DNA of 41,197 bases from a virus. The stretch lies in IMG/VR virus record IMGVR_UViG_3300042356_001663, positions 1 to 41,197 of that record. The stretch is one strand, 5' to 3'. Shown here one piece after another: positions 8,008 through 31,007 of the stretch; the first letter of the stretch is position 1, and every line of letters starts with the position of its first letter. Position numbers and translations under genes: made by a program. Under the pieces are notes generated by a model that saw nothing but the letters and a program-made list of their open reading frames with translations, did not search any database and was not told where the DNA came from.

Positions 8008-8424
8008 TCAGCCTTGCAGCTTTTTAATAATATAGTTGGTTAGCAACAATTTGTTACTTTTATACTTAATCCACTCTGTCTCTGGATGGTTTGACTTTTT
8101 AACTAAGTCAATAAGTTCTGGCAACTTCATAGACTTTAACTCTTCTATCACGCCATCCATATTAGAAGTTTCTGAACCTTCAACTCTCTCTGAGTTCTCA
8201 TCAGCTGGATTTTCTTCTGACTCTTCTACAACTTTCTTTTTGATTGGTGTTGTTTTAGATTTTGATTCGACAATTTCCCAAGATTCTGGGGATTGTTCAA
8301 CCATAAGATTTCCACAATCTTCAGAAACTTCAACAATACCATTGTTGTCAATTTCAACCACACCGTCAATTGGTAATTTGATTTTAATACCAAAATTACT
8401 CTCTTTGTTTGTCTTGATTTGCAT
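8008..8424 (-). CDS. Capsid accessory protein with C-terminal HeH/Rho_N-like domain
   Basis: 138 aa. A short beta-rich N-terminus (GIKIKLPIDGVVEIDNNGIV) is followed by an acidic Ser/Glu-rich linker and a C-terminal helix-extended-loop-helix segment (IEELKSMKLPELIDLVKKSN...LLLTNYIIKKLQG, residues about 92-138) like the Rho_N/HeH or SAP-type domains found next to capsid genes. It may be a head fibre or decoration protein. It lies directly downstream of the capsid gene but after its terminator, with an A-rich AAACAAAACAAA leader before its ATG. Confidence 0.5.
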   Translation of the reverse strand: MQIKTNKESNFGIKIKLPIDGVVEIDNNGIVEVSEDCGNLMVEQSPESWEIVESKSKTTPIKKKVVEESEENPADENSERVEGSETSNMDGVIEELKSMKLPELIDLVKKSNHPETEWIKYKSNKLLLTNYIIKKLQG

Positions 8425-8451
8425 TTTGTTTTGTTTATTTGTTTTGTTTAA

Positions 8452-8481
8452 TAAAAAAAGCTGACACTTTCGTGTCAGCTT
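8452..8481 (-). terminator. Strong Rho-independent terminator after the capsid gene
   Basis: On the minus strand a perfect 10-bp stem (AAGCTGACAC with GTGTCAGCTT, arms 8472-8481 and 8458-8467) with a GAAA loop is followed by TTTTTTATT. It begins 22 bases past the capsid stop and would make the capsid transcript largely monocistronic. Confidence 0.9.
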
Positions 8482-8503
8482 CTATAACTTTGAATTTAAG
8501 TTG

Positions 8504-9997: not shown

Positions 9998-10027
9998 TGT
10001 TTTTATTATGATTTAGTTGATTTTAAG

Positions 10028-10034
10028 ATAACTG
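10028..10034 (-). promoter_or_regulatory. CAGTTAT late-promoter-like motif (capsid gene)
   Basis: CAGTTAT on the minus strand, in context AAATCAGTTATCTT, 30 bases before the capsid ATG. The same motif occurs 28-32 bases before the 480-aa gene and the portal gene, which suggests a phage late promoter element. No transcript data are available. Confidence 0.5.
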
Positions 10035-10050
10035 ATTTGTGATTTTTTGA

Positions 10051-12785: not shown

Positions 12786-12789
12786 AATT

Positions 12790-13467
12790 TTATGATTTAA
12801 ATCTACCTTTAGTTTTTGCGTCATTATAAAAATCAACAAGTTTGCTTATTTGATTTTTTGACAAATCTTTTATCGTCTTCTTATAATTCATCATCAAATA
12901 GTTGTGAATATATGTTTTTAAAACATCCTCACTTATTACCATTTCCTTATTACCCCAATCTGAAACAACACTCATTAGTTTTTTGAAGATTGCTGATTGT
13001 ACATTTTCTTGAAATGATTTTGGCTCAACTTCATTATTGATATCTGATTTGACTCTATGAATGAATTTATTGATTTTAGCGGTATCTTTTTTGAAATTGG
13101 GGTTGTCTTCTAAAAAATCAGATAATTCATATGGGTAGCTTGACCTACTCATATCAACCTCACTTCTCGAAGGAAACATTGGAATTTGTAATTTCAACCT
13201 CTTAATGAAATCTTCAGTATAATTAGCAGCTATTGCTCTCAATCTCTGTTCACTAAATTTCTTACCATCTTTATCTGTATTTTTTATGATACCTCTTTTG
13301 AGTTCATTTAAAGAATGTTCAAACTTGAGTTTCTTTAATTGCAACACTTCCTTATCACTAAAATCATTCAAATTAAAATTGCGCCATTTGTTGGGCGCAA
13401 TCTTAATCTTTCCAGTAATCAGGTGAATGTCACCAATACTGTATTTGGCTTTACTTTTCTTCGTCAT
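12790..13467 (-). CDS. Hypothetical basic, helical protein of the virion block
   Basis: 225 aa, Lys-rich and mostly helical, with no membrane segment. It contains KIKIAPNKWRNFNLNDFSDKE near the N-terminus and a C-terminal helix pair (LLMMNYKKTIKDLSKNQ then KLVDFYNDAKTKGRFKS in shortened form). No family recognised. It sits between the 461-aa protein (1-base overlap) and the topoisomerase gene (4-base gap), so the three are probably translated together and may be injected or internal head proteins. That is a positional inference. Confidence 0.6.
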   Translation of the reverse strand: MTKKSKAKYSIGDIHLITGKIKIAPNKWRNFNLNDFSDKEVLQLKKLKFEHSLNELKRGIIKNTDKDGKKFSEQRLRAIAANYTEDFIKRLKLQIPMFPSRSEVDMSRSSYPYELSDFLEDNPNFKKDTAKINKFIHRVKSDINNEVEPKSFQENVQSAIFKKLMSVVSDWGNKEMVISEDVLKTYIHNYLMMNYKKTIKDLSKNQISKLVDFYNDAKTKGRFKS

Positions 13468-14852
13468 TACTTTTTGGTAACTGTGTTGGGATTTCTCTCG
13501 TAAAGTTTTCCATCTTCTCCACGTATAACATAATATCCATTAGGAGAGTGAACATTAACATTCATATGTTTGAATGTTCCTCTGACTTGCTCACCCTTGA
13601 CATTAAACATTATCTTATCTCCAGTTTTGAATCCATTGTGCTCTGTTGTTTTAACACCACTCTTAGCATATTTACCACCTTCTTTCTTAACAACTTTTAA
13701 CGAAACAGTTTCCTTTGAAACTGACATAGGTGACTTAGACAATGGAACTTCAACTGTTGTTGTTTCTGATTCTTTCGCTTCGTTTCTGTCTATTTTTTTA
13801 CGTATAGTTCTATTGATTTCGTAACTCTTATCACCGAACCTGTTGGATAACTTTTGAAACACGGTTTTCTCCTCATCTTTACTGGATAGAAGAACTTTTG
13901 TATGAAATTTGAATGATATATCACTCAATTTTCCTTGAAGTTTTTGTAGACTTTTCAAATCAACGTCTTCAATGTTTTCTGGAATTTCTGGCTCATCTAT
14001 CTTAAGTCTATCAATCAATTCTCTTTCAAAAACTCTCATTCTAGATAAATCTGCTCCAGTTGCCTCACCTTTTTTCTTTGAATAGATAGATGATAATTCA
14101 TCTACAAGTTTGTTATCATCGTACTTTGCGGCTGTCTTTTCAACAGCTTCAGAAAACTTGCTTTGTAATGGATTAGGTTTTTTAACCTCTTCTTTTACAC
14201 TTGATTCTTTAGAAGACTTGTCAGCATTCATATTCTCACCAATCCATTTTTTGATTTTAACATCTTGCATCAAGAACAACGATTTTTGTTTTGGTGATTC
14301 AGGAGTTGGGGTGATCAATCTGCCTTTATCATTCAACAAGTCCTTCAACCCAATTTGTAATTGATTCATCACCCCATCAGGTAATGGATTACCATCTGAA
14401 TCCAATCTTGTAACCATAACAGAATCAGGTGCAACACCTTTTTTAGTTATCCTGACTTTTTGACCTTTTATACTACTCCAACCTATGGCATCAACAAATG
14501 GATTGACTACAAAGTCTTTTCCAATCACATTTTCACCATTAATAACTAATTTTGAATCGAGAGTCTTTCTGCGTTTGTCTAATGAAATATTAGCTTTTGT
14601 TTCTTTAGCTTTTCTTTCAGCTAATTTTTTTCTCATTTCATCCAAATCATAAGTTTTAGGCTTAGATTTTACTCCAACCTCTTGGATTCTTGTGAATGTT
14701 TTGCCAGATTTATTCTTGACAGTCACGACTTGTTTCTTCTTACCTTCACCGTATTTGGATTGCGATTTTTCGATTGTTTCATAACCTTCGTCAGAAGATA
14801 TCTTTGCCAAATCAACTGGCTTCAAAGATTTTAAAATTTCAGATTTTTTCAT
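13467..14852 (-). CDS. Putative internal virion protein sharing motifs with the topoisomerase
   Basis: 461 aa, Lys/Glu-rich. Residues about 30-62 carry SKYGEGKKKQVVTVKNKSGK followed by TFTRIQEVGVK, nearly repeated in the TopIB protein. The C-terminus (about 408-458) has GDKIMFNVKGEQVRGTF and YYVIRGEDGKLYE, matching the N-terminal domain of TopIB. The centre is helical and unrecognised. The two related genes are separated by one gene, which suggests duplication and shuffling of head-targeted modules. Preceded by a CAGTTAT motif at 14916-14922. Probably an internal or ejected head protein; not demonstrated. Confidence 0.55.
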   Translation of the reverse strand: MKKSEILKSLKPVDLAKISSDEGYETIEKSQSKYGEGKKKQVVTVKNKSGKTFTRIQEVGVKSKPKTYDLDEMRKKLAERKAKETKANISLDKRRKTLDSKLVINGENVIGKDFVVNPFVDAIGWSSIKGQKVRITKKGVAPDSVMVTRLDSDGNPLPDGVMNQLQIGLKDLLNDKGRLITPTPESPKQKSLFLMQDVKIKKWIGENMNADKSSKESSVKEEVKKPNPLQSKFSEAVEKTAAKYDDNKLVDELSSIYSKKKGEATGADLSRMRVFERELIDRLKIDEPEIPENIEDVDLKSLQKLQGKLSDISFKFHTKVLLSSKDEEKTVFQKLSNRFGDKSYEINRTIRKKIDRNEAKESETTTVEVPLSKSPMSVSKETVSLKVVKKEGGKYAKSGVKTTEHNGFKTGDKIMFNVKGEQVRGTFKHMNVNVHSPNGYYVIRGEDGKLYERNPNTVTKK

Positions 14853-17376: not shown

Positions 17377-17928
17377 TCAAGTTATATCCAACTTCAGTAG
17401 AAAAGTTTTTTTTGCTACCTCTAAAGGTGCAAATTTTATACCATCGTTTATCAAATCTCTCCTGCTTGTATAACTTATAACACCATCTTCTGGATGAGTG
17501 TTTCTTATGTTTAACCTGTTTAAAGATTCAAATAATTTTTTACTTCTTAAAGAGAAACCACCGTTTCCAACAACATCCAAATTATTACCAAAGGGTGCAC
17601 CTATGTAATCGTAATTCGTGAATTCATCTATCCGCTTGTTCGGATTCAATATCCAACCGTCGTGTTGGATTATCAAAATATGAGTTGATTCAATCAAATC
17701 TAAATATTTAACAAATTCTTTTATCATGAAATGTGAATATTCAGAGTTGTTTTTAATCTTATCAATCTTTACAGTTTGATAGCTGTCATTCTCAATGTCA
17801 ATATCTGTAAATAAGTAACACCCTTCATTTTCGCAAAGGGTGTTACAATGTAGCAATGTTCTGGATGCTCTTTCTTGGTCTAATGTGTCAATTATGACTA
17901 TCGATACATTACACAACAATGTTTTCAT
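17377..17928 (-). CDS. DUF5672 family protein, frameshifted near its C-terminus
   Basis: 183 aa in the open frame. It carries DUF5672 hallmarks: ILIIQHDGWILNP (about 104-116), YDYIGAPFGN, VGNGGFSLRSKKL (about 141-153) and HPEDGVIS. The family resembles glycosyltransferases that modify surface glycans. The frame stops early: after an A8 run (17406-17413 on the plus strand as T8) another frame continues as FSTEVGYNLNETFGFH... to a stop at 17315, matching the expected family C-terminus and ending 1 base before the next gene. One missing A or slippage at A8 would restore about 204 aa. It overlaps the DUF5675 gene by 20 bases. Confidence 0.75.
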   Translation of the reverse strand: MKTLLCNVSIVIIDTLDQERASRTLLHCNTLCENEGCYLFTDIDIENDSYQTVKIDKIKNNSEYSHFMIKEFVKYLDLIESTHILIIQHDGWILNPNKRIDEFTNYDYIGAPFGNNLDVVGNGGFSLRSKKLFESLNRLNIRNTHPEDGVISYTSRRDLINDGIKFAPLEVAKKTFLLKLDIT

Positions 17929-18433
17929 TAAAATACAAAATCTTTTGATTTCCTGCTTTTACCGCTTCATATATCTTAGGATAATGTTTTTTATAGAAGT
18001 TTCTTGAACCAGCCACCCCCTCTTGACCAGCAAAAACTCCAAGACCACCACCTGTTATAAGACAACCTTCTGTATCATCGTCATCGTTTCCCCAATGCCA
18101 TAATATTAACTCAAAATTGGGCACATTTTTTACCCAAACCAAATCATGATTTCTCCAATCTGTTATTGTTTTGTATTTTGACCTCTCTCTAGCTTCAATC
18201 AATAACTTGTTTGAATCTGAATAAAGAAATTGAGCACTGAATTTGGGTGATTGTCTGAATCCCAAATCATATGAACCGAAAGGGATTGCTGTCTCACCTT
18301 TCACCTTCACTTGCCTCATTTCATCCTCAACTGAGAATCCAGTTAATTTTGAATTAATGTAAAAACGCCCTATAGTCCAATCTTTTTTGAAATTGTATCT
18401 ACCTACAGATATTAAGTGTTTGTTGTCTATCAT
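17909..18433 (-). CDS. DUF5675 family protein, probable lysis-associated (copy 2)
   Basis: 174 aa with the DUF5675 signature: GFSVEDEMRQVKVKGETAIP (about 32-51), FELILWHWGNDDDDTEGCLI (107-126). The conserved His113 and Cys124 are spaced as in copy 1 (His93/Cys104). It starts in an ATGA overlap with the holin-like gene upstream and is followed by DUF5672 and spanin-like genes, so it probably acts in host wall degradation or remodelling. It has a longer loop than copy 1 (TITDWRNHDLVWVKNVP) and a GVAGSRNFYKKHYPKIYEAV tail typical of the family. Confidence 0.8.
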   Translation of the reverse strand: MIDNKHLISVGRYNFKKDWTIGRFYINSKLTGFSVEDEMRQVKVKGETAIPFGSYDLGFRQSPKFSAQFLYSDSNKLLIEARERSKYKTITDWRNHDLVWVKNVPNFELILWHWGNDDDDTEGCLITGGGLGVFAGQEGVAGSRNFYKKHYPKIYEAVKAGNQKILYFNENIVV

Positions 18434-19395: not shown

Positions 19396-19734
19396 TTACC
19401 ACTCTGTTCTGTATCTAACAGTGTAAGTGCTTGAATCAGATGTCGCTACGTATAATTCTGAAGCATCCACTAAGCCAGAAAATTTACAAACAGTGTTTGC
19501 CTTCACTACAACATAGTTTGTATTAGTATCATCTACAGTATTATCGTCTGCAGTTAGTTTTTTTCTGCGTTGAACAATGTTCAAATCTTTAGCTTCAGCG
19601 AAAAATGTCACAGAAGCACAAGATAATTCTTTCAACGGTGTGTATGTACCACTAGCTGTAATCGAATCTTGTTTCGCATTAGTAGCCACTAACACTTTGG
19701 TTAGTGGGGCAACTCTTCTTTTACTATCGTTCAT
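19396..19734 (-). CDS. Small beta-rich virion protein
   Basis: 112 aa, Thr/Ser/Val-rich with alternating hydrophobic residues (YTPLKELSCASVTFFAEAK; YVVVKANTVCKFSGL; SSTYTVRYRTEW) that suggest a compact beta fold, like small head decoration or head-tail joining proteins. It begins in a TAATG overlap with the portal stop, so its translation is coupled to portal. No family was recognised. Confidence 0.5.
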   Translation of the reverse strand: MNDSKRRVAPLTKVLVATNAKQDSITASGTYTPLKELSCASVTFFAEAKDLNIVQRRKKLTADDNTVDDTNTNYVVVKANTVCKFSGLVDASELYVATSDSSTYTVRYRTEW

Positions 19735-21374
19735 TATTTTAAACCGTTTAAATATTCGATTGTTGATTTTATAAATGGATTTTCATCCTCTTCTTGATTT
19801 TCTTCTTCATTGCTAATACCTGATTCTTGTTGACTCATCATATCAGCTTGTTGCTTTAATGTTTGATTTTGAAGATAAGTACCAGAACCAATATAATCAC
19901 CTTTACCATCTTTCATTGGTTTGTCTCCTCTCCTCTCTCTTACCTCATCTATAGTGTTGAGGTTGTTCGCTAACTTGATATCCATCTCCAACTCTTCATT
20001 CTTAGTCAAAGCATCCATACCTACAAACACGAATTCAAATTCCGGGTCAATTCTCTTAACCCAATACTTATCTAACCTTCTTTGAAGATGTCTAAGCATT
20101 GGATACAATCCTTTCTCTTTAGAGAATTTCAATCTGTTTTCATTACTCCCTCCAAACAAAGGGTTTGAGTCATTACTTCCACCACCTAATGGAAAATTAA
20201 CTTCTGCTGGGTCAATAGACATTACAGCACAACTAATTTTAATCAAGTATTCTTGCCATTTCCCATACTCCATATCAGAATTTGACTTGTGTAAGTCAAT
20301 CCAATCAACATCACCGTCTAATACTGGAGTCTTCCAAGAGTTTTGGACTCCAGCCATCATAGCTGCCCAACTTTGCTTGAATTCTTGTAATACTGGTTCT
20401 GATACACCACCTTTTATCTTCAACAAGCCTTTTGGACTTGAACCTTGACTGAAGAAACGTCTGTTGTATTCATCACCCCAAAGTATTGAAGTGATTACTA
20501 CCATCAATTCTTCTAATTCTGATACACCATAACCATTTGAATAGATTGAAGATGTTGGATTCCTAACACCAAAACACAACTCCCAAGGGTAATATTCTGT
20601 TTGAATCACATTATCGATGACTTGAACATAAGATGGGTAGTAACCGAATTTCTTAACCCCCATCAAGTCACCTTTGGTTGTTATCATTCTACGTCTTCTC
20701 TCTATCTCTTCTTGAAACGCTTCATCATCATATGATTCTGATATCCTTACTGTAGCAGCATCTACCGCTATCATTTCTTGAGGAAAGCCACGTCTGTCTT
20801 CAATCACCTCGAAGCAGTATTGATCAAATGAATAAGAATCTTGAACCAACTTTCTAATCATTGCATCAAAGTCATCAGCACCCCACTTGTTGCTCCAACC
20901 GCAATTTAATATTGATTCTGTGATTTTGTCTGCTCTCTTGTGTTCTGATAAAGACATCTTAGCATCATTCCCAGTTCTATTTCTCTTTCTAACAACGAAA
21001 CCAGTGGTGTATTTGTCTGATTGAGACTCACAGAATGCTGCCACTTGATTCTTTCTAGTCTTAATGATTGCATTGATAATTGGAGTCTTGCTCATTGCTG
21101 ACAAAGTACCATAGGTCAATGCATATGGTTTATCTTTGTATCCAAAATTAGAAGTGAAGGTAAGTGGGTCAACTAAGGTTGTTTTCTTATTTATAGCACT
21201 CTTCGTTTGTATGCTTTGAACAATTTCTGATGCTTTTAGGATGTCTGATGGGTTACTAGACTCCAACCCACTCTTTATCAATAATTGCTTTTCAATAGAC
21301 AATTCTTTCTCTTGTCTCTGAAGGTCGCTTAATCTTTCTGCTAGTGATTTATTTTGTTCGGATATCTCAGTCAT
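19734..21374 (-). CDS. Portal protein
   Basis: 546 aa from the ATG at 21374 (MTEISEQNK); an upstream TTG could add 8 residues but is unlikely here. After a coiled N-terminus come the features of phage portals: MSKTPIINAIIKTRKNQVAA, DSYSFDQYCFEVIEDRRGFP (stem and wing region), PWELCFGVRNPTSSIYSNGY, ILWGDEYNRRFFSQGSSPKG and DKYWVKRIDPEFEFVF. It forms the dodecameric ring for DNA packaging and ejection. A CAGTTAT motif (21407-21413) 32 bases upstream and a terminator just before it indicate its own late transcript start. Confidence 0.85.
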   Translation of the reverse strand: MTEISEQNKSLAERLSDLQRQEKELSIEKQLLIKSGLESSNPSDILKASEIVQSIQTKSAINKKTTLVDPLTFTSNFGYKDKPYALTYGTLSAMSKTPIINAIIKTRKNQVAAFCESQSDKYTTGFVVRKRNRTGNDAKMSLSEHKRADKITESILNCGWSNKWGADDFDAMIRKLVQDSYSFDQYCFEVIEDRRGFPQEMIAVDAATVRISESYDDEAFQEEIERRRRMITTKGDLMGVKKFGYYPSYVQVIDNVIQTEYYPWELCFGVRNPTSSIYSNGYGVSELEELMVVITSILWGDEYNRRFFSQGSSPKGLLKIKGGVSEPVLQEFKQSWAAMMAGVQNSWKTPVLDGDVDWIDLHKSNSDMEYGKWQEYLIKISCAVMSIDPAEVNFPLGGGSNDSNPLFGGSNENRLKFSKEKGLYPMLRHLQRRLDKYWVKRIDPEFEFVFVGMDALTKNEELEMDIKLANNLNTIDEVRERRGDKPMKDGKGDYIGSGTYLQNQTLKQQADMMSQQESGISNEEENQEEDENPFIKSTIEYLNGLK

Positions 21375-21406
21375 CGTTTGATTGTATTTTACAGACAAAA
21401 CGATTT

Positions 21407-23033: not shown

Positions 23034-24464
23034 TTACTTATTTCCACCAGTGAACTTGTCTAAGATAGACAGTATACCAACTCCTTCTGCAGTTTGTTTC
23101 AAACTCTCAATCAAACCATTGACTTGAGAACCACCTTTGGATGTAAAAAGGTCTGAGAATTTACCCATGCCAGATTGTACATCACCAGCATTAACAAGCA
23201 ACTTCAACTCTGCTTTTGATAATGCTTCTGCTATTGATTTGGCTTGAGCAACTCCAACAACCTCACTTACTTCAACCTCTCTTACTTTAATCAGGTAGTT
23301 TTGGTAAGATTGATTTTCACCAATCTCTTTAGCCAACTCTGTTTGAGCTGTAACGTTTGCCAATTCCATCAACTTCTTAGATTCTGCTTCTGCACTACCT
23401 TTTGATTTGATTACATCTGCTTCTGCAGTACCAATCACTCTAACACCCTCTGCTTCCTTCTGATTTGCTTCTAATTCAGCTGTTGCTTGCGTCACGGTAG
23501 TGATTTTCTCTGCTTCTGCTCTCAACTCTGCTTTGCGTTTTTGTTTTTCTGATTCAATAATCTCTTTCTCTTTTTGAATTTCAGCTGTTTTGATTTCGCT
23601 GATTTTTAAAACTTCCATTTCTTGCTCTGTGGTAGATTTTTTGGCTCTCGCAATTTCTGACAAAGACTCTTGTTCAGCAATACCTGAATTCTTCAATGAA
23701 TCTGCTTGGGCAATCCCAATGGCTTGTTTTGACCTCGCTTGCGCTTCTCCTGATTCTCTTTCGGTTTCAGCCTTAGTAAGTGAAATTTCCTTCAATGCTT
23801 CAAGTTCAGCTTGTTGAGCTACTTTCTTATTCTTAGCAACTTCAATTCTTGATTCAGCATCGATTTCTGATATTCGTTTCGCCATAATGTTCTCAATAAC
23901 TTTTGAGCCTTCAGCGTCACGAACATCCATTAATTCAAGATTCTTAACAGCTATAACACCCCAATTAGCTAAATCGCCATTGACACTGTCGGTGAATCTT
24001 TGACCAAAGATGCTTCTGTCTTCCATAATCGAATCAAGTTTGTATTGAGCCAAGATTGACCTGATTGAACCTCTGACAACATCTGTAAGTTGTGATTTGA
24101 GTTCTTCAAATGAATTAACCTTTTCAGCTGCTTTGTTTGTATCAGATATTTGAAAGAATGCTTTGACTGATACAATGAATGGTACACGGTCTTTGTCGTA
24201 TGCTTCGTACTTCTCTAATGTGATGTCGAAGTTGGATACTGGCAAACTCCTTACAGCTACACCAATTTTCGGCAACCAAAATGGGAATTCATAGTAAACG
24301 TTTGATGTTTTACCAACCCCATAGGAAACAGTCTTGCTTCCTCTCTGGACGATGTGAACCAGATTTGTTGGTACGATTCGTCTCAAAGAGAAGACATAAA
24401 ATACTAAAGCCAATACAATCAAGATTGGTAGGACGATGATTAGAATTTGAACTAAATTTTGCAT
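23034..24464 (-). CDS. Flotillin/SPFH (band 7) domain protein
   Basis: 476 aa. One N-terminal membrane segment (about 5-27, ILIIVLPILIVLALVFYVF) is followed by an SPFH domain (about 30-195, including YYEFPFWLPKIGVAVRSLPV and LKSQLTDVVRGSIRSILAQY) and a long Ala/Glu/Lys coiled coil (about 195-420) with the flotillin-type EAEGVRVIGTAEADVI, then a Gly-rich tail. Flotillins form membrane microdomain scaffolds. In a phage it could organise the host membrane during infection or protect it. It lies between the modification genes and virion genes, with its own terminator-like hairpin downstream. Confidence 0.85.
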   Translation of the reverse strand: MQNLVQILIIVLPILIVLALVFYVFSLRRIVPTNLVHIVQRGSKTVSYGVGKTSNVYYEFPFWLPKIGVAVRSLPVSNFDITLEKYEAYDKDRVPFIVSVKAFFQISDTNKAAEKVNSFEELKSQLTDVVRGSIRSILAQYKLDSIMEDRSIFGQRFTDSVNGDLANWGVIAVKNLELMDVRDAEGSKVIENIMAKRISEIDAESRIEVAKNKKVAQQAELEALKEISLTKAETERESGEAQARSKQAIGIAQADSLKNSGIAEQESLSEIARAKKSTTEQEMEVLKISEIKTAEIQKEKEIIESEKQKRKAELRAEAEKITTVTQATAELEANQKEAEGVRVIGTAEADVIKSKGSAEAESKKLMELANVTAQTELAKEIGENQSYQNYLIKVREVEVSEVVGVAQAKSIAEALSKAELKLLVNAGDVQSGMGKFSDLFTSKGGSQVNGLIESLKQTAEGVGILSILDKFTGGNK

Positions 24465-24532: not shown

Positions 24533-25492
24533 CTAAGATTTTTGTACATACTTCTGTCTTTTTTTACCAACACCATTTAACATCTTCCAATACTTGCCCA
24601 GTTCACAGTTCCACATCTCTACTGTGTGTAAATTCACATTAGAATTAGATTTTCCCATCTTAACTTCGTATCTACCTCTGCTGATATTCCAGCTAACGTA
24701 TTTAAAGTCTTCTGGTAAATATTCTGGAGCAATGTCTCTCAAGAGACTTAAACCTTCTTCTTGATTCTTCATTGAAGGGAATATGAGTCTTAACCCAAAG
24801 CTACATCCTGGACCAACATTAGTCCAACTGTTTCGGTTAAAATGCATCATTGGTTGTCCAGTGTATATCTCAACATCGCAAAAGTCTTGATAGTATTCAT
24901 GTATCAGAAATGAACCTACACCGAATATCTTCAATGTTGATAATACATTCTTCACATCACCCCTCGTGTTCTTGATTATATCGAACATAATATCAAGCCT
25001 CTTGTGATACACTCCTATTATGTTTTCAGCATAAGCAAGATATCTAGGTATGCCACCCCAAACATATGTGTTGATTTTGTAAGCATCATCATTCAAGGTT
25101 TTGAACCCAGATTGTTCGAGTTTGTGTAGTTTCGATACAAACTTGTTCAAGTTGAAATCTGAATAATCTGGATATCCACCTAATTCTTCAATAGTTTCAG
25201 GTTTGTTTATGACTCTGTGTATGAGTATCGAAAACAGTATTTGTTTCAACCTGTCTTCTTTCAAGTAGCAATTTTTGATTAAGAATTGACTACTTCTATC
25301 TAATTCACGATAAACGTTTGTGAATTTGTAATCTCTGAATAACTTATTGGTTGTCCAAGGTGCTGGTTTCTTGAGAAAGGTTTTATTGAACCAAACTTCT
25401 TGTCTATCATGCATTGTTGAGAAAAACAACTTCAGATTTTCTTCGTTTACGTCTTGTGACGTGTCTGGTAAAAGATGGTCGTAATTTGCCAT
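24533..25492 (-). CDS. 5-hmdU DNA kinase helical-domain / thymine-pyrophosphorylase family protein
   Basis: 319 aa. Residues 45-66 carry PWTTNKLFRDYKFTNVYREL followed by DR, the hallmark of the helical domain of 5-hydroxymethyl-dU DNA kinases (earlier described as an alpha-glutamyl/putrescinyl-thymine pyrophosphorylase clade). Further family features follow: LIHRVINKPETIEELGG, a KIFGVGSFLIHEYYQDF segment near 190 and WTNVGPGCSFGLRLIF near 225. The family acts on 5-hmdU in phage DNA on the way to hypermodified thymidines. A separate P-loop kinase is at 30393-31007, and the two may act together. The FkbM-like gene ends one base upstream, so they are co-transcribed. Confidence 0.8.
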   Translation of the reverse strand: MANYDHLLPDTSQDVNEENLKLFFSTMHDRQEVWFNKTFLKKPAPWTTNKLFRDYKFTNVYRELDRSSQFLIKNCYLKEDRLKQILFSILIHRVINKPETIEELGGYPDYSDFNLNKFVSKLHKLEQSGFKTLNDDAYKINTYVWGGIPRYLAYAENIIGVYHKRLDIMFDIIKNTRGDVKNVLSTLKIFGVGSFLIHEYYQDFCDVEIYTGQPMMHFNRNSWTNVGPGCSFGLRLIFPSMKNQEEGLSLLRDIAPEYLPEDFKYVSWNISRGRYEVKMGKSNSNVNLHTVEMWNCELGKYWKMLNGVGKKRQKYVQKS

Positions 25493-25493
25493 A

Positions 25494-26204
25494 TTATTTC
25501 AGATTTTTTGCTAAAACAAAACGGTCGAATGTGAAAGGATAGGTGTCATTATCAAAATTCCTATCAAGTCCTTTGATATAATGAACATCGTGATATTTAC
25601 TTCTTAACCAAGCCATTCTTCTTCTGAAGTTAGCCATGTTTCTGTCTTTCAACAAGTGATATTCCATAACCATCTTATTTGGTAGGGGTAAAATCTTCTT
25701 GTCGAACATTTCTAATTCACTGCCTTCTATGTCGATTTTAACACCATCGTACTTAGATGCATCTATATCTCCGACAAAGATGTTATCAAAATAGTTGTCT
25801 GATGGTTTAGTGTTCTTGAGAAGTGTGAAGCGGTATCTATCTGTTTGTTTTGAACCTGTGAAAAATGGTAATTTCTTTTCTTTAGAACAAGAAACTGCTG
25901 ATTGATGGTAAGTTAATTCTGGACAATTCAATTTTATCATTTCGTAGTTCTCCAAGAATGGTTCATAACCCTCTGCTGTTGCGCCATTCAACAAACAATA
26001 AACTCCAAATGCACCTATATTACCACCTAAATCCAACCAGTGTTCACCTTCTTCAACATCCATTCCAAACGTTTTGTGTCTGTAACAGTGATTTGTCACC
26101 ACTTCTTTTAAACAATTGTAATCAGTTGTTCCTTTACGGAAATAAATTTCTCTCTCAGTGTTCAAGTCGAACAACTCCAGTGAATCAACCACTTCTTTTT
26201 TCAT
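25494..26204 (-). CDS. FkbM-like SAM-dependent methyltransferase
   Basis: 236 aa. A class I methyltransferase core: motif I HWLDLGGNIGAFGVYCL (56-71), the acidic residue at the end of strand 2 (EGYEP, Glu81), and DGVKIDIEGSELEMFD (about 157-173), which is the FkbM signature. It ends one base before the kinase-family gene, within the hypermodification genes. It could methylate a modified base or an amino-acid adduct, or a small molecule or glycan as classic FkbM enzymes do. The substrate is unknown. It starts at an ATG after the terminator of the 84-aa gene. Confidence 0.75.
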   Translation of the reverse strand: MKKEVVDSLELFDLNTEREIYFRKGTTDYNCLKEVVTNHCYRHKTFGMDVEEGEHWLDLGGNIGAFGVYCLLNGATAEGYEPFLENYEMIKLNCPELTYHQSAVSCSKEKKLPFFTGSKQTDRYRFTLLKNTKPSDNYFDNIFVGDIDASKYDGVKIDIEGSELEMFDKKILPLPNKMVMEYHLLKDRNMANFRRRMAWLRSKYHDVHYIKGLDRNFDNDTYPFTFDRFVLAKNLK

Positions 26205-26237
26205 GATTTTGGTATTTGAATTTTAATTAAATAATTA

Positions 26238-26260
26238 AGGCAGGACTTAATGCCCTGCCT
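26238..26260 (-). terminator. Rho-independent terminator after the 84-aa gene
   Basis: On the minus strand AGGCAGG (26254-26260) pairs with CCTGCCT (26238-26244), 9-base loop, followed by TAATTATTTAATTAAAA. It ends the 84-aa transcript 31 bases beyond the stop. Confidence 0.7.
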
Positions 26261-26291
26261 CAATAAACTTTGATTTGTCGAACTACCCCTA

Positions 26292-26546
26292 TTAGGCTTT
26301 CTTAGCACGTTTTGCTTTCACGTGAGCAAGTGCGGTATCTTTTGACATGATAACAGAAATGTTGTTACCTTCAAAATCTTGACCTTTTGCAATCCAAGAA
26401 CCTTTCGGTGTTTCAGAAACAGTTGCGTTGAACATTTCAACTTTCTGTTTGTGTTTCATGCTGTAAGCCTCGATTGCTCCACTTGTAATAGCTGGTAATT
26501 TTGTTGTTGCTACTTTTTTAGTAGCTGGTTTTGCGGTTGTTGCCAT
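26292..26546 (-). CDS. Small basic protein, probably highly expressed
   Basis: 84 aa. The N-terminus TTAKPATKKVATTKLPA is Lys/Ala/Thr/Pro-rich like histone-H1-type tails, followed by a short folded part (KVEMFNATVSETPKGSW) and a basic C-terminus (HVKAKRAKKA). It is a single-gene unit with a CAGTTAT motif (26594-26600), a leader of six AAAAC repeats and a strong terminator, which suggests high expression. It may be a DNA-binding or virion-associated protein; no family was recognised. Confidence 0.6.
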   Translation of the reverse strand: MATTAKPATKKVATTKLPAITSGAIEAYSMKHKQKVEMFNATVSETPKGSWIAKGQDFEGNNISVIMSKDTALAHVKAKRAKKA

Positions 26547-26580
26547 GTTTTGTTTTGTTTTGTTTTGTTTTGTTTTGTTT
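26547..26580 (-). repeat. (AAAAC)6 pentanucleotide leader repeat
   Basis: Six perfect AAAAC units plus a partial one, read on the minus strand, end immediately before the ATG at 26546. Bacteroidota ribosomes favour A-rich leaders over Shine-Dalgarno sites, so it probably boosts translation. A 5-base repeat of this length could also vary in copy number. Confidence 0.8.
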
Positions 26581-26593
26581 AACAGTAACCTAG

Positions 26594-26600
26594 ATAACTG
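26594..26600 (-). promoter_or_regulatory. CAGTTAT motif upstream of the 84-aa gene
   Basis: CAGTTAT in context ACACAGTTATCTAGG, 47 bases before the ATG and upstream of the AAAAC repeat. It is the same motif seen before the portal and capsid genes. Confidence 0.4.
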
Positions 26601-26667
26601 TGTTAAAAAATATATTATGCTGAAAAATTATAATTTGCTGATATAGACAACAATAAAATTTATACAC

Positions 26668-27627
26668 TTACAGAGAGAGCATTATCTCTACAACATCACA
26701 TTTTGGTATCTTGCTATGATAATGGCTATTGTAGATGACTCCTGTGTCTTTGTATAATGATTTTTTATCCTTCTCTACCCCCTTTTTGTTCAAAAAAATA
26801 TTTTGGTCAAAATCAATAACACATTGTTCAAATAATTCTTTCCCTAGAGTGTGTTTCAATTCTATTAACTCGTCTATATCGTGATTTATGTAATACTTAC
26901 CAGATTTAAATTTGTACCACTTACAGAAGCATGTTTCAACCTCTCCTATATCAGCTTTCCAAGCATCAGCTAACTTGAATCCAAATTCGTTCCATATTTT
27001 GAAATAACTCTTGTCGTATTGTTCTTCAGTCCCAAATAGTGTTCTTAATCCACCTACTGGACCATCTGTGCTGTTTGGGTCTCTACCGTCTAATCCTAAA
27101 TCTGGTATTGCGAATTGATTATATCCAAGACTTTTTTCAAATATCTCTGCTAACTTAAAAGCAGCCCAAACACTGTGCTGTGGTATGTTTTGTACTGCCT
27201 GCTTGAAAGAATTGTTGTCTTGAAAATAAGTTTTACCTTCTACAAGTCTGATTGGATTCTTTCTAGTGTCAATACATTCAACAAACTCAGAAATATAATC
27301 GAACATTTTGATTTGCTCGTTGACGTTGCGTGCAGTTCCTCTCCTTTCGTGACCAAATCTTGTTAGATTTGAATTACTACCGTTTCCTTTTCTAAGATAT
27401 TCAAACAACTTAGAGTCCCAGTGTTTGGGAGTTGGCATATGTTCACACATCTTATAAGCTGTCTCAAGACTATAAAAAGCAACATAGCAAAAAGCAAACC
27501 ACTCAGGCTTAATCTCATTTTTTTCTCTTAGGAGATTTTTGATGAAAATGTAAGTTGGGTCGACATCACGTGAACCTATTAATGCTCTTGAGAAAATGTC
27601 AAAGTCTCTGTATATCCTATTGCTCAT
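26668..27627 (-). CDS. Amino acid:DNA transferase-like protein (thymidine hypermodification)
   Basis: 319 aa. Features shared with phage amino acid:DNA transferases: DFDIFSRALIGSRDVDPTYI at the N-terminus, PEWFAFCYVAFYSLETAYKM (41-60), GHERRGTARN (92-101), a middle VWAAFKLAEIF (153-163) and PDLGLDGRD. These enzymes displace pyrophosphate from activated 5-hydroxymethyl-dU in DNA and attach a free amino acid, often glycine. The start overlaps the previous gene by 11 bases. Other hypermodification genes lie within 4 kb on each side. The exact amino acid cannot be read from sequence. Confidence 0.7.
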   Translation of the reverse strand: MSNRIYRDFDIFSRALIGSRDVDPTYIFIKNLLREKNEIKPEWFAFCYVAFYSLETAYKMCEHMPTPKHWDSKLFEYLRKGNGSNSNLTRFGHERRGTARNVNEQIKMFDYISEFVECIDTRKNPIRLVEGKTYFQDNNSFKQAVQNIPQHSVWAAFKLAEIFEKSLGYNQFAIPDLGLDGRDPNSTDGPVGGLRTLFGTEEQYDKSYFKIWNEFGFKLADAWKADIGEVETCFCKWYKFKSGKYYINHDIDELIELKHTLGKELFEQCVIDFDQNIFLNKKGVEKDKKSLYKDTGVIYNSHYHSKIPKCDVVEIMLSL

Positions 27628-28126
27628 CGAAAAATAATTGATTGTTTTTCTTGCTCCAAAGTTCCAAAACTATTGGTGCGTAGTCTGAATCCCAGAATCT
27701 ACAAATCATTTTTTCTGTTGATTTGGATGAATACTTACCTTTCTTATCTTTCATTAGTTGTTTAAACCACACACTCTGGTCAGCGCCGTTGTAAAGGTCT
27801 GCTTCACAATTAACTCTGGAATTGGTTGTGGAGTAAATCTTGTATTCAACTCTTGTTTTACCACCATTTGTTTTCTTTACAACTTCATTGTCTCGCAGTT
27901 TTCTGTGATTCCCCAGCCACTCTGATGTGAATAAGTTGTCTTTTTCATTCAAAATTACTAGAATCTTGTTGGCCATTTCTTCTGTTTCACAACATAAAGT
28001 CAAGCAATCTCTGTATTTCTTAGGATTAACTACGTCCTCATAATAAACTGTCCTGAATCTTTGGATAATGTGATAAGGTGATTTAACATCAATTGGGTCG
28101 TGTACTAATTCAAAATGCGTTTTCAT
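27617..28126 (-). CDS. Hypothetical protein co-transcribed with the DNA transferase
   Basis: 169 aa from the ATG at 28126 (MKTHFELVHDP). A longer frame back to 28174 would need a TTG start lying inside a stable hairpin, so it is less likely. It contains YHIIQRFRTVYYEDVVNPKK, KTRVEYKIYSTTNSRVNCEA and a Trp/Lys-rich C-terminus. No family recognised. It overlaps the transferase gene by 11 bases, which suggests a joint role, perhaps as a partner in DNA modification. Confidence 0.6.
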   Translation of the reverse strand: MKTHFELVHDPIDVKSPYHIIQRFRTVYYEDVVNPKKYRDCLTLCCETEEMANKILVILNEKDNLFTSEWLGNHRKLRDNEVVKKTNGGKTRVEYKIYSTTNSRVNCEADLYNGADQSVWFKQLMKDKKGKYSSKSTEKMICRFWDSDYAPIVLELWSKKNNQLFFDEQ

Positions 28127-28159
28127 TGAATGCTGCAGATTAATTGTATGATTGAATAT

Positions 28160-28200
28160 GACAAGGCTATCCAAAATAGAATCTTGGACATTACCTTGTC
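28160..28200 (-). promoter_or_regulatory. Long hairpin upstream of the 169-aa gene
   Basis: A 7-bp outer stem (GACAAGG/CCTTGTC, 28160-28166 with 28194-28200) and a 5-bp inner stem (TCCAA/TTGGA) form an interrupted hairpin in the gap between two genes. It has no U-tract after it. It could be a weak terminator, an RNA processing site or a 5'-end stabiliser. Confidence 0.4.
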
Positions 28201-28216
28201 ACTTGAACTTTGATTA

Positions 28217-28678
28217 TTATTTAACATTTCTATCAACAGAATTTTTTATATAAGAGTATAGATACTCGCTTGACACTCTTATCGTCAGTTGATGAATTGC
28301 ATCCTTTAAAGTGGTGTTTTCTGAAGCAACCAAATCAGCATTTATGTAGAAATTCAATATTGAACCAGTGTCTGGACAGTGAATTAGAAATGAAAAATTT
28401 CCACCTTCAATTTTATAGAATTTACTTTTGAAAAATTTTCTTTTGAAGATATCATTCAAACAACTAATAACAGAATCAACAATGTATTCTTCGAGTAATA
28501 CAAGGTGTTTTAACACTCTCTTTTTGTAAGAATCATAATTCTCATTAATAGATGATGATTCTAGAATCTTAGAGTCATTGGTTAATTGATTTTTAACTGT
28601 ACAGTTGTAAAAACCATCTTGATGTTGTAGGAAAGACAATCTCTTTATGTTTGTTGTAAATTCTTCAATACTTTTCAT
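28217..28678 (-). CDS. Hypothetical protein
   Basis: 153 aa, soluble. The sequence contains LVLLEEYIVDSVISCLNDIF in the first half and a beta-rich middle (FYKIEGGNFSFLIHCPDTGS), ending SEYLYSYIKNSVDRNVK. No domain recognised. It lies between the modification genes (169-aa gene downstream, 75-aa gene upstream) with a 73-base gap before it. Its position suggests a middle-phase gene. Confidence 0.55.
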   Translation of the reverse strand: MKSIEEFTTNIKRLSFLQHQDGFYNCTVKNQLTNDSKILESSSINENYDSYKKRVLKHLVLLEEYIVDSVISCLNDIFKRKFFKSKFYKIEGGNFSFLIHCPDTGSILNFYINADLVASENTTLKDAIHQLTIRVSSEYLYSYIKNSVDRNVK

Positions 28679-28751
28679 TGTTATATAATTAATGTTTATA
28701 TTCTGAATGAGTTTTTACCGTAAAATGTATTATTTTTACCTGATATAGAGA

Positions 28752-28979
28752 TTAATATCTTTTACTATTGCCAAAATTCAACATCCCTTGATTTTCTTTA
28801 TACTCTCTTCTCAATTTAGCAAGTGATTCAAGAATCACTTTTTTAGAAGAACTACCCCACATTTTGGGGTTGCCTCTTGTTATACAATCTTCTTTTGCAG
28901 TTGTACCTTTGTGAATAATTCTACCATCTGCTGGTCTGTGTCTTTCTGTGATGATTCCATCACTAATTACTGTTGCCAT
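28752..28979 (-). CDS. Small basic hypothetical protein
   Basis: 75 aa from the ATG at 28979 (MATVISDGIITERHR). The frame stays open further upstream, but that would read through the terminator at 29034-29064, so the inner ATG is preferred. The sequence has ADGRIIHKGTTAKEDCITRG and KKVILESLAKLRREYKEN, a helical basic C-terminal half. No family recognised. It is the first gene after that terminator. Confidence 0.55.
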   Translation of the reverse strand: MATVISDGIITERHRPADGRIIHKGTTAKEDCITRGNPKMWGSSSKKVILESLAKLRREYKENQGMLNFGNSKRY

Positions 28980-29033
28980 ATTTTTGATTTGTTTAATACT
29001 AATAACCATGTAGATGAATTCCTTACTCATAAA

Positions 29034-29064
29034 ATTAAAAAAAGCCGTGTTTTTACACACGGCT
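29034..29064 (-). terminator. Rho-independent terminator after the FAD enzyme gene
   Basis: On the minus strand AGCCGTGT (29057-29064) pairs with ACACGGCT (29043-29050), 6-base loop, followed by TTTTTTTAATTTT. It ends the kinase/141-aa/FAD transcript 41 bases after the stop. Confidence 0.9.
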
Positions 29065-29104
29065 AATTCAGTAACAATCTCAATAAAAACTATGAACAAT
29101 AATG

Positions 29105-29974
29105 TTAACTTTGTTTGATAAAATTGTACAATTCTTGAGCTACATATCCACTCAATATGGTTGAGTTCTTAGCACCACCTGTGGCTGTATAGAGATTTCT
29201 GTCTCTTTTAACAACAAAATCATGATTTCCTTTCGGCAAATATGGTCTCATGCCTTCTTTGACACTTGTGATATGTTCCATCGCTGAAGACAATCCTATG
29301 AGGTCAATTGCGTGTTGAACAAGTCTATCCCCAGCCATCTTAACTCTCTTATCATTTGGCTTTGGATTTTTGACTGTAGAACCATCGCCGAATATGAATT
29401 TGTTTTCATCCAACTTCAACAAAACACTTTGTTTGTAAGGACTCCATGTTTTATACCTTGAAATGTCAATATTCATCTTGAAGTCCAAAGTTGCTCCCCA
29501 ATAAGAATCAATATCTATAGGTTTGTAGCCTGATTTCTCTAATAATATATCAGTATAAACACCAGCAGCTATGACAACTGCTTTGGTTGCTGTAATTTTG
29601 GTGCCATCTTGTAATGTCACAACATTGTTAGAAACTGAATCAACTTTGGCGTTCAAGAAATACTCTTTGTTTCTCTCATCAAGAATCTTAGAACAGTCAA
29701 TCTTGAACATCTTATCTTCAATATTTTTATCTTGATTGAAATAATCAATTGTTGTTATTCCGATCATCTTATCCAAGATAGGCAAACTAATGTTGACTTT
29801 ATCTGAAATTGATTTATTTATCCACCCTTCTTTCCAAACTCCAAACGAACATTTTGATGCTGCAAACACTTCATCAGAATCAATAAGCAAAACATCAGTG
29901 TTTTTACTTCTGAGAAATTTGCTGGTCATTGACCCAAACAATCCAGCACCTATGATTATTGCTTCTACTTTCAT
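29105..29974 (-). CDS. FAD-dependent amine oxidase/lyase-like enzyme (DAO fold)
   Basis: 289 aa. A classical dinucleotide-binding start, AIIIGAGLFGSMTSKFL (Gly9, Gly11, Gly14), the acidic LLIDSD at about 29-34, AVVIAAGVYTDILLE near 160 and a C-terminal YTATGGAKNSTILSG. The fold is that of D-amino-acid/glycine oxidases (usually about 370 aa), here shortened. Flavin-dependent lyases of this type convert amino-acid adducts on thymidine in phages with hypermodified DNA, and the neighbours here encode a kinase and an amino acid:DNA transferase, so that role is likely. The start overlaps the 141-aa gene (ATGA). Confidence 0.75.
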   Translation of the reverse strand: MKVEAIIIGAGLFGSMTSKFLRSKNTDVLLIDSDEVFAASKCSFGVWKEGWINKSISDKVNISLPILDKMIGITTIDYFNQDKNIEDKMFKIDCSKILDERNKEYFLNAKVDSVSNNVVTLQDGTKITATKAVVIAAGVYTDILLEKSGYKPIDIDSYWGATLDFKMNIDISRYKTWSPYKQSVLLKLDENKFIFGDGSTVKNPKPNDKRVKMAGDRLVQHAIDLIGLSSAMEHITSVKEGMRPYLPKGNHDFVVKRDRNLYTATGGAKNSTILSGYVAQELYNFIKQS

Positions 29975-30396
29975 TTGCTATTATTAATTTTTGTTTGTAA
30001 TTCTTCTAATTTCTTTAACATTGTTTTGTAAGACTTCAACCCACTCACCCCATCAAAAGGTTTGATAATTTGAAACGTTATAAAATCTTCAAATTCAAGT
30101 GGTTGTTCGTGTAATAAAACACCAGATGAATTTTCAATATCAACCCATTGTTTAATCAATTCTTGTTTTTGCTCCAAGGTTAATGTGTCTTTTATCTTCA
30201 AAACACTTGGCATCCCTTGAATTAAAACTGGTTCTGATGTTATGAACAACTTGTACTTACAATCTTTGGTATCAAAACTTCTCTTGATATAAAATACTAT
30301 TCTATCAAAATCTTGTTCATTGATTTTGTTATGGAGAGTTATGATGATAATAATTGGATAGCTTTTAAGCATCTTGTTTAATGTTCGTAATTTCAT
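29971..30396 (-). CDS. Hypothetical protein between kinase and FAD enzyme
   Basis: 141 aa. The N-terminal half is hydrophobic-strand rich (YPIIIIITLHNKINEQDFDR, FITSEPVLIQGMPSVLKIK), then a helical C-terminus (YKTMLKKLEELQTKINNSK). It has ATGA overlaps at both ends, with the P-loop kinase and with the FAD enzyme, so the three proteins are probably made in a fixed ratio. No known domain recognised. An accessory factor of the modification pathway is plausible. Confidence 0.6.
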   Translation of the reverse strand: MKLRTLNKMLKSYPIIIIITLHNKINEQDFDRIVFYIKRSFDTKDCKYKLFITSEPVLIQGMPSVLKIKDTLTLEQKQELIKQWVDIENSSGVLLHEQPLEFEDFITFQIIKPFDGVSGLKSYKTMLKKLEELQTKINNSK

Positions 30397-31007
30397 TCTA
30401 AAAGTTGTATTATGGTATTTGATATTTTACTGGACAAATCTGGGTCATTAAATTCTAACTTGAGAACAGCATCTGAATATGGGATAACTTTGTTATACAA
30501 ACTCCTGAAACCTTTGATTTTACCCTCCAAGTTAGCCATTGTCTTCTCAGTTATTGATTCGATTATCTTCAACTCATCCTTGGGTTTTTTCTTGATTCTG
30601 CGTTGAATTACACGCTCAAGATTATCTTCCACTGTTGGAAAATCTAACAATACAACCATTAGCTTACTCTTATCATTCTTCAAGAAATCGAGCCAAGTTG
30701 TTGTAGCCATGATTCCGTCAATGATAATCAACTTAACGCCTTTGTTAAGCAACAATTCATAACCTTCTCTTATCATCTCTTTCTTAGAAATTGTATCAGT
30801 ACCAGTGCATTGATTATTACCCATCGCTCCAACGTGTCCTGTGATTTGATATTCTGTCGCTATCGTTGTCTTGTTGTCTATATTAGACTTGTGAAACTTT
30901 GGATTGTTGATATCATCATTAAACAAACTGTGAATGAGTTTTGATTGAGTTGTCTTTCCACTTGCGTTGCTCCCCAAAAAGAATATAGTTAGACTATTTT
31001 TTGACAT
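30393..31007 (-). CDS. P-loop kinase, probable 5-hydroxymethyl-dU DNA kinase
   Basis: 204 aa. Walker A FFLGSNASGKTTQSKLI (Gly12...Lys18-Thr19), a Walker B-like KLIIIDGIM (Asp97), and a lid with RRIKKKPKDE near 136-145. The NQCTGTDTISKKEM segment near 65-78 resembles P-loop kinases of DNA hypermodification clusters. It would transfer phosphate to the 5-hydroxymethyl group of dU in DNA. It overlaps the 141-aa gene by 4 bases. A small nucleotide kinase is an alternative, but gene context favours base modification. Confidence 0.65.
   Translation of the reverse strand: MSKNSLTIFFLGSNASGKTTQSKLIHSLFNDDINNPKFHKSNIDNKTTIATEYQITGHVGAMGNNQCTGTDTISKKEMIREGYELLLNKGVKLIIIDGIMATTTWLDFLKNDKSKLMVVLLDFPTVEDNLERVIQRRIKKKPKDELKIIESITEKTMANLEGKIKGFRSLYNKVIPYSDAVLKLEFNDPDLSSKISNTIIQLLE

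Follow-up and report, generated by a model that had tools for sequence, protein, structure and literature searches.

What base would a phage make if it carried a glycine-type thymidine modification cassette and, among its genes, a methyltransferase? Phages escape restriction and CRISPR through altered bases, of which few are known. One route to them, proven in Pseudomonas phages, runs from phosphorylation through the attachment of glycine to trimming by a flavin enzyme. The window considered here is the whole stretch of DNA that we analysed, 41,197 nt corresponding to positions 1-41,197 of IMGVR_UViG_3300042356_001663. It is a fragment of an incomplete viral genome whose relatives measure 86-118 kb.

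The cassette and its enzymes

A sequence-only reading had placed four hypermodification enzymes and an FkbM-like methyltransferase on one strand of this fragment, and had regarded the mix as unusual. All five proved to be open genes; they lie on the minus strand and match the stated coordinates, and open reading frames, Pfam, phrog_800 and PDB matches support the four enzyme families. The cassette genes are all intact and some overlap. They are, by descending position:

30393..31007, minus strand, P-loop half of the 5-hmdU DNA kinase (Walker A motif GSNASGKT; phrog_800 match)
29971..30396, minus strand, 141-aa ORF of unassigned function (4-base overlaps with the kinase gene and with the flavin gene)
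29105..29974, minus strand, predicted flavin-dependent lyase (sequence match to PDB 8z2o/8z79; DAO PF01266)
28217..28678, minus strand, 153-aa ORF within the cassette, function unassigned by Pfam and PHROG searches
27617..28174, minus strand, 185-aa ORF of unassigned function (11-base overlap with the transferase gene)
26668..27627, minus strand, amino acid:DNA transferase, predicted to be a glycine transferase (PF18724; PDB glycinyltransferase matches by profile)
25494..26204, minus strand, FkbM-type SAM methyltransferase (PF05050; AlphaFold2 fold; neighbourhood counts and tree)
24533..25492, minus strand, HMUDK_hel helical protein (PF18723; AlphaFold2 model with a DNA-glycosylase-like fold)

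The 141-aa ORF gave no convincing family match in Pfam or PHROG, and neither it nor the 185-aa ORF has a relative among the portal-linked loci. We read the 4-base overlaps of the former as translational coupling, an inference from sequence alone. The flavin enzyme had been taken as the only trimming enzyme, and this holds for the ORFs examined in the 41 kb fragment, none of which was recognised as encoding a radical SAM, PLP or acetyltransferase protein.

Profile searches, proposed as a check on the kinase helical domain, the transferase and the DAO protein, assigned each to the family named. HMUDK_hel was found in 24533-25492 (Pfam PF18723, E 3.5e-35). No Pfam family reaches its cut-off with the P-loop protein, which aligns to positions 33-170 of phrog_800 (E 1.9e-9); the helical protein aligns to positions 287-472 of that family, which has 511 positions. 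As the two cover different parts of phrog_800, they correspond to two halves of what is a single protein in other phages. Profile A6 detects the P-loop gene and its homologues in ADDT-bearing genomes; homologues are present in L006 and L014. A tblastn search of annotated phages gave no match. Separate P-loop and helical genes are ordinary in the Mesyanzhinovviridae, for example in PaMx11 and Sonora, and only the 5 kb between them in this fragment is unusual.

The transferase exceeds the Pfam cut-off for ADDT (PF18724, E 5.8e-9). The ADDT profile A1 finds the PDB glycinyltransferase 8z2m/8z2n (E 7.6e-14) and also 25qc (E 1.4e-19); DxDP-Y, ERR and ETxLC motifs are common to the transferase and the PDB glycinyltransferases, and its identity to L006 is 44-48%. 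Two of the features that define the amino-acid-type pathway of M6, ViI and PaMx11, a 5-hmdU DNA kinase (P-loop plus HMUDK_hel) and an amino acid:DNA transferase, are present here. The flavin enzyme carries a DAO domain (PF01266, E 1.9e-15) and matches the flavin-dependent lyase 8z2o/8z79 over its full length (residues 1-287, E 7e-24), with PYxQ, GDGS, RPY and C-terminal TGGAKN motifs in common; its homologues include PaMx11 gp47 and Epa5. It thus satisfies the sequence criterion for a gp47-type lyase, namely full-length similarity together with TGGAKN. Because the transferase and the flavin enzyme match the solved PaMx11-type enzymes (5-PmdU glycinyltransferase and flavin-dependent lyase), 5-aminomethyl-dU is predicted as a product. 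By homology, and without an enzyme assay, the lyase would cut the attached glycine and leave the aminomethyl group.

What HMUDK_hel contributes is less certain, and its presence in viruses without a detected kinase puts its function in question. Its AlphaFold2 model (pLDDT 87) has among its closest solved folds the PaMx11 glycinyltransferase and 8-oxoG DNA glycosylases. The match is moderate (Foldseek probability 0.80 but E 0.25), and helical folds can reach Z values such as those obtained (9.2 to MjOgg, 8.8 to PUGT) without kinship. An hhalign comparison of HMUDK_hel with ADDT gave a probability of 78.5 and E 1.7e-5. A PDB sequence search returned only chance-level matches (RGS2 proteins, E about 0.01), which were rejected. 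It is possible that HMUDK_hel is a glycosylase-like protein that binds DNA and presents 5-hydroxymethyl-dU to various tailoring enzymes; the fold is predicted by the model, and DNA binding and the role are inferred.

The methyltransferase and its gene neighbourhoods

The product of 25494-26204 scores only marginally as Methyltransf_21 (FkbM, PF05050; E 4.6e-5, 24.1 bits against a Pfam cut-off of 22.7), and falls under the stricter NCBIfam cut-off. It has a SAM motif and a KxDIEGxE motif, with residues conserved in 34 relatives, and these motifs together with the Pfam score satisfy our criterion for FkbM membership. The AlphaFold2 model (pLDDT 93) shows a class I fold whose nearest solved structures are generic class I enzymes. 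An MnmC- or MnmM-like identity was rejected on these generic matches and on FkbM being the sole curated profile that fits. The (N/D)PP(Y/F) motif of base N-methyltransferases is absent from the alignment. Known FkbM enzymes are mostly O-methyltransferases, and they take varied substrates.

To place this protein we gathered 80 viral loci through the methyltransferase and compared them with 14 loci harbouring distant FkbM homologues. Pathway genes that make or use hydroxymethyl-uracil lay beside the methyltransferase in 76/80 viral loci versus 0/14 distant loci (p 1.8e-13). The methyltransferase was at most 200 bp from a TET/JBP dioxygenase gene in 56 of the 80, and had an HMUDK_hel or thymidylate-synthase (TS)-family gene in its flank in 20; none of the 80 had TET/JBP together with an HMUDK_hel or TS-family gene nearby, and none of the 14 distant loci had any of the three. 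Of the exceptions, L035 and L058 have the methyltransferase near one end of a contig shorter than 5 kb, and the 104 kb record of L048 contains HEL, TS and PLK away from this flank; for L050 no explanation was found. Rhodococcus phage Trina likewise has a methyltransferase homologue without pathway genes nearby. In the fragment itself the methyltransferase gene lies one base from that of HMUDK_hel. The suggestion that the methyltransferase is a pathway member finds strong support in these gene neighbourhoods. The claim of an unusual enzyme mix held only in part, since L021, L026 and L031 have ADDT, flavin enzyme, kinase, methyltransferase and helical protein all together.

Ten viral records with HMUDK_hel, the methyltransferase and a TS-family gene showed neither ADDT nor P-loop kinase, an absence that depends on our profiles and possibly on incomplete contigs. 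In the tree, contexts with and without ADDT are interspersed within one 17-row methyltransferase clade (support 100/99), which argues for a single common methyl acceptor. HMUDK_hel was not found in the TET viruses tested. No cytosine-C5 methylase was found in 20 records tested, so that TET probably acts on T; action on 5-methylcytosine is disfavoured, although a host enzyme is not excluded. The only stage common to the TET and HEL/TS contexts, as inferred from gene linkage, is 5-hydroxymethyl-uracil.

Source of 5-hmdU and related systems

No TET/JBP gene was found in the 41 kb fragment, and a search for the dUMP hydroxymethylase, which the sequence-only reading had called for, found no TS-family gene there. 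A 5-hmdU source of either kind is a further feature that defines the amino-acid-type pathway, as is hypermodified thymidine in virion DNA. Scanning viral contigs with either the transferase or the helical protein as the single query gave no matches, and relatives were reached through the flavin enzyme and through alignments. A 110 kb relative has the same order, PLK-FAD-ADDT-(PLK-PLK)-HEL, upstream of the portal, and L014/L121 have the order PLK-GIY-GATase-ADDT-MT-HEL-portal. A TS-family gene is present in all seven portal relatives that carry HEL and reach 86 kb or more; among the five that reach 70 kb or more and lack HEL near the portal, none has it (Fisher p 0.0013). The gene is distant from the cassette in these near-full-length relatives, and in the L006 genome its product shows 35-42% identity to M6-/PaMx11-type phages versus about 23-26% to T4-type Td. 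Its presence in all seven suggests that it is the missing hydroxymethylase, which we infer is likely to be situated in the portion of the genome that the fragment does not cover.

Among known systems, PaMx11 has homologous transferase (gp46), flavin lyase (gp47) and separate P-loop and helical kinase genes. It differs in having an acetyltransferase that adjoins the lyase and a TS-family gene within the cassette; the fragment has neither, and has the FkbM methyltransferase instead. The nearest named phages to the fragment's transferase are the actinophages Phelemich, Wooper, Tonitrus and Kozie, whose cassettes also unite transferase, small P-loop kinase and FAD-type enzyme; in these TET/JBP is the 5-hmU source, and no HMUDK_hel or FkbM methyltransferase was found in the loci. 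Neighbours of about 290 aa in the actinophages were considered as HMUDK_hel and rejected, as the alignment showed FAD-type proteins. In the ParB-TET/JBP-FkbM cassettes of Pelagibacter phage HTVC112P and Prochlorococcus phage MED4-184, a homologous methyltransferase adjoins an enzyme making hydroxymethyl-pyrimidine in DNA, whereas kinase, transferase, flavin enzyme and HMUDK_hel were not found. The wobble uridine modifications made by MnmEG and MnmC (cmnm5U, nm5U, mnm5U) follow a similar logic, in which glycine is placed on the 5-methyl of uracil, an FAD enzyme removes the carboxymethyl and a SAM enzyme may methylate, but they act on RNA rather than DNA, without kinase or transferase and with a methyltransferase from another family.

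A proposed pathway and its rivals

That the cassette encodes a glycine-type thymidine hypermodification pathway which includes the methyltransferase is very likely, as inferred from protein families, homology to solved enzymes and gene linkage, all of which are shown. The individual reactions in this phage are inferred throughout, as are the identity of the methyl acceptor and what HMUDK_hel does. In the pathway that we propose, the phage would replace some of the thymine of its DNA. A TS-family hydroxymethylase, presumed to lie outside the sequenced fragment, would supply 5-hydroxymethyl-dU; HMUDK_hel would present this base to the P-loop kinase for phosphorylation; the transferase would swap the phosphate for glycine; and the flavin lyase would cut the glycine to give 5-aminomethyl-dU. 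The methyltransferase, taken as an enzyme specific to such pathways, would work with HMUDK_hel to O-methylate 5-hydroxymethyl-dU that the kinase branch has not consumed, yielding 5-methoxymethyl-dU alongside 5-aminomethyl-dU. In favour of O-methylation are the 5-hydroxymethyl-uracil stage common to the TET and HEL/TS contexts, the known FkbM enzymes, which mostly act on oxygen, and the missing (N/D)PP(Y/F) motif. In the absence of chemical data we give this whole reading a probability of roughly 0.45, and the lack of a 5-hmdU source in the fragment itself counts against it.

A linear pathway remains possible, in which the methyltransferase N-methylates the lyase product to 5-(methylaminomethyl)-dU, which corresponds in DNA to the mnm5U of tRNA. 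The methyltransferase is paired with the flavin lyase in the fragment, L021, L026 and L031, which could equally mean that the aminomethyl product is the acceptor and so weighs against our preferred reading. There is also a tRNA precedent for a glycine adduct followed by FAD cleavage and methylation, the last two by the FAD domain and SAM methyltransferase of MnmC in that order; in our searches an MnmC model gave only a weak match, to the L006 flavin homologue. Against it, the same methyltransferase clade occurs in the ten records without transferase or kinase, the wider subfamily occurs in the 56 TET loci, none of which has an enzyme that would install nitrogen, and the domain is FkbM-type rather than MnmC-type. 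It is unlikely that the methyltransferase acts otherwise, on the glycine carboxylate, the phosphate or another base, leaving 5-aminomethyl-dU as the main product. Our evidence does show linkage and not the acceptor, and FkbM substrates are varied, but such an acceptor would not be the one stage that the TET and HEL/TS contexts have in common.

Two further explanations appear very improbable. The methyltransferase could be a passenger, acting for instance on surface glycans, with the pathway ending at 5-aminomethyl-dU; its marginal FkbM score and the homologues in L050 and Trina speak for this, but the adjoining pathway genes in nearly all viral loci and in no distant one, and the single base separating it from HMUDK_hel, speak against it. 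Alternatively, the cassette could be decayed or idle for want of 5-hmdU, as neither source gene is found in the 41 kb; however, its genes are intact and partly overlapping, and the near-full-length HEL-bearing relatives all have their TS-family gene far from the cassette.

Returning to O-methylation, a bolder reading, against which we lean slightly, is that this widespread viral FkbM-type family consists of DNA 5-hydroxymethyl-uracil O-methyltransferases making 5-methoxymethyl-dU. Their substrate would come either from TET/JBP acting on thymine or from a dUMP hydroxymethylase, two sources with no relation to each other, and in the second case would reach them via HMUDK_hel as a common base-presenting subunit with a glycosylase fold and not as part of a kinase as such. 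In the literature searched, no paper connects FkbM with base modification in phages or describes methoxymethyl-dU, though earlier mention (Lee 2018, Lee 2022, Iyer 2013, Wen 2024) is not excluded. That the product is not yet described, as first proposed, stays an inference; the capping of DNA with such a methylated base is nevertheless the probable outcome of the cassette, its chemistry being inferred. The methyltransferase family also occurs in the cultured marine phages HTVC112P and MED4-184, whose DNA is open to direct analysis, and the cassette offers candidate enzymes for DNA labelling. The co-occurrence described here points to a new step in the tailoring of hydroxymethyl-uracil, carried out by this methyltransferase family.

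The cassette and its predicted base

The virus record is 41,197 bases long and is classed as linear, without end repeats. It contains a head and tail module (portal at 19734-21398, a protease and the major head protein), and the modification cassette lies directly upstream of this module, with both on the minus strand:

30393-31007, minus strand, P-loop protein (PHROGs)
29105-29974, minus strand, flavin enzyme (Pfam/PHROGs)
26668-27627, minus strand, amino acid:DNA transferase, ADDT (Pfam/PHROGs)
25494-26204, minus strand, FkbM-type methyltransferase (Pfam/PHROGs)
24533-25492, minus strand, helical protein HMUDK_hel (Pfam/PHROGs)

Pfam and PHROGs searches upheld every family assignment of the sequence-only reading: kinase, flavin enzyme, transferase, helical protein and FkbM-like methyltransferase. 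The P-loop and helical proteins match opposite ends of a single family, phrog_800 (511 positions), and the 5-hmdU kinase is therefore split, its genes 5 kb apart. Overlaps of 4, 4 and 11 bases between cassette genes, and a 1-base gap between the methyltransferase and helical genes, suggest that the genes are likely expressed jointly, an inference from sequence alone. An SPFH/Band_7 (flotillin-like) protein (PF01145, E 2.7e-19) is encoded at 23034-24464, where its gene separates the cassette from the head genes; such a protein is unusual for a phage and was not found in the scanned relatives. Two window genes (17909-18433 and 203-640) belong to the unknown family phrog_1501.

According to PMC6449724, the pathways share a scheme in which a 5hmdU DNA kinase phosphorylates the 5hmdU that has been incorporated, and further modification follows. 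Over its full length the flavin enzyme aligned with 8z2o/8z79 (E 7e-24), which are flavin-dependent lyases of solved structure, and the transferase profile retrieved the solved glycinyltransferase 8z2m/8z2n and 25qc, named in the structure entry as 5-phosphomethyl-dU glycinyltransferase gp46 of phage PaMx11; these structures are described by Wen et al. By homology to these enzymes the window would probably produce 5-aminomethyl-dU, the reaction itself being inferred. PaMx11 has an acetyltransferase, whereas none was seen among the window ORFs examined, nor was a radical SAM or PLP enzyme; within that scope, the claim that the flavin enzyme stands alone held.

Neighbourhoods of the methyltransferase

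Initially, only four annotated phages were found with a methyltransferase homologue: Pelagibacter HTVC112P and Prochlorococcus MED4-117, MED4-184 and P-HS2. Of these, the HTVC112P and MED4-184 loci were retrieved; in both, the gene abuts that of a TET/JBP dioxygenase, and a ParB-like gene lies alongside. A viral scan seeded with the annotated-phage sequences gave 80 loci, in which pathway genes were located with local profiles. TET/JBP lay within 200 bp of the methyltransferase in 56; 14 had a helical or thymidylate-synthase (TS)-family gene without ADDT, six held ADDT cassettes, and four had no pathway gene in the flank. In two of these four the contig is very short and the gene sits near one end of it, and L048, also among the four, had helical, TS and P-loop kinase genes elsewhere in the record. 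TET occurred together with kinase-type genes in none of the 80. TET, helical, TS and ADDT genes were likewise absent from all 14 control loci of distant FkbM homologues, 13 of them from bacterial genomes and the other from phage Trina (Fisher p 1.8e-13).

The window's methyltransferase falls in a 17-row clade (support 100/99) drawn entirely from helical, TS or ADDT genomes (L048 at record level only), with ADDT and non-ADDT members intermixed. Three other phages (L021, L026 and L031) carry the window's complete set, flavin enzyme and methyltransferase included. The ParB-TET/JBP-FkbM triplet recurs in most of loci L032-L092, with no further known tailoring enzyme in the flank. Locus L015 has HMUDK_hel genes on either side of the methyltransferase (6689-7792 and 8754-10214), with a phosphoribosyl-ATP pyrophosphohydrolase-like gene alongside.

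Portal-linked relatives and the helical protein

A portal-based scan gave 29 loci; the near relatives among them carry the helical gene close upstream of the portal. The 110 kb record L006 matches the window's order: P-loop kinase, flavin enzyme, transferase, two more P-loop kinases, helical protein, portal. Its three kinase copies (8428-9051, 12339-13013 and 13010-13633) are divergent. The closest relative carrying the methyltransferase (L014/L121, 46.9 kb) has P-loop kinase, GIY-YIG, class II glutamine amidotransferase, ADDT (6.4e-18), methyltransferase, helical protein and portal. Here the amidotransferase domain (GATase_6; L014 6244-7020, L121 6456-7232) replaces the flavin lyase, possibly hinting at different nitrogen chemistry. 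In L109, HMUDK_hel (7131-8132) is broken in two by a stop or frameshift.

The sequence-only reading had called for a dUMP hydroxymethylase search; the window has none. Each of the seven records of 86-110 kb with the helical gene also has a TS-family gene, far from the cassette, and a TS-family gene is absent from all five portal relatives of 70-118 kb that lack a helical gene near the portal (p 0.0013). That of L006 scores best against M6- and PaMx11-kind phages, and is therefore likely a dUMP hydroxymethylase; the window's lack of the gene is thus best read as truncation. All functional statements rest on homology and gene neighbourhood, absence calls are limited by possibly incomplete contigs, and the profile seed alignments were drawn from few phages.

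The AlphaFold2 model of HMUDK_hel (pLDDT 87) gave one plausible solved fold in Foldseek, the PaMx11 glycinyltransferase (probability 0.80, E 0.25). With a second aligner, this glycinyltransferase ranked alongside queuine salvage enzymes and 8-oxoguanine DNA glycosylases (Z 8-9); profile comparison also linked HMUDK_hel to ADDT. These scores are all moderate. Together with the 88-99 kb records that carry HMUDK_hel without a detected P-loop kinase, and its position within 200 bp of the methyltransferase in 16 of 19 loci, they suggest that HMUDK_hel could be a base-presenting DNA-binding protein and not merely a kinase domain, a tentative view in which both binding and presentation are inferred. 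In the 97 kb record L100, in which no kinase was found, an ORF that is glycosyltransferase-like by eye (5732-6559) lies directly upstream of HMUDK_hel.

The methyl acceptor

At record level, ADDT and P-loop kinase co-occurred in the same five of 18 methyltransferase genomes tested, with the kinase alone in one (G017), and both were undetected in ten records with helical, methyltransferase and TS genes. The helical gene was not found in the TET viruses tested. TET was not found in helical viruses by a search that gave no signal even in controls; a separate search did pick up the TET family itself, in L011 and L012. No record tested had a cytosine-C5 methylase. The stage common to all methyltransferase contexts is inferred to be 5-hydroxymethyl-uracil in DNA.

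The main rival holds that the methyltransferase N-methylates 5-aminomethyl-dU, since the flavin lyase and methyltransferase would then act in consecutive steps; we find this the less persuasive account. Because of the shared 5-hydroxymethyl-uracil stage, the FkbM type and the lack of an N-methyltransferase motif, our first choice is that the enzyme would O-methylate 5-hydroxymethyl-dU, a near-balanced call in which the acceptor chemistry is untested and the whole reading is given a probability of roughly 0.45.
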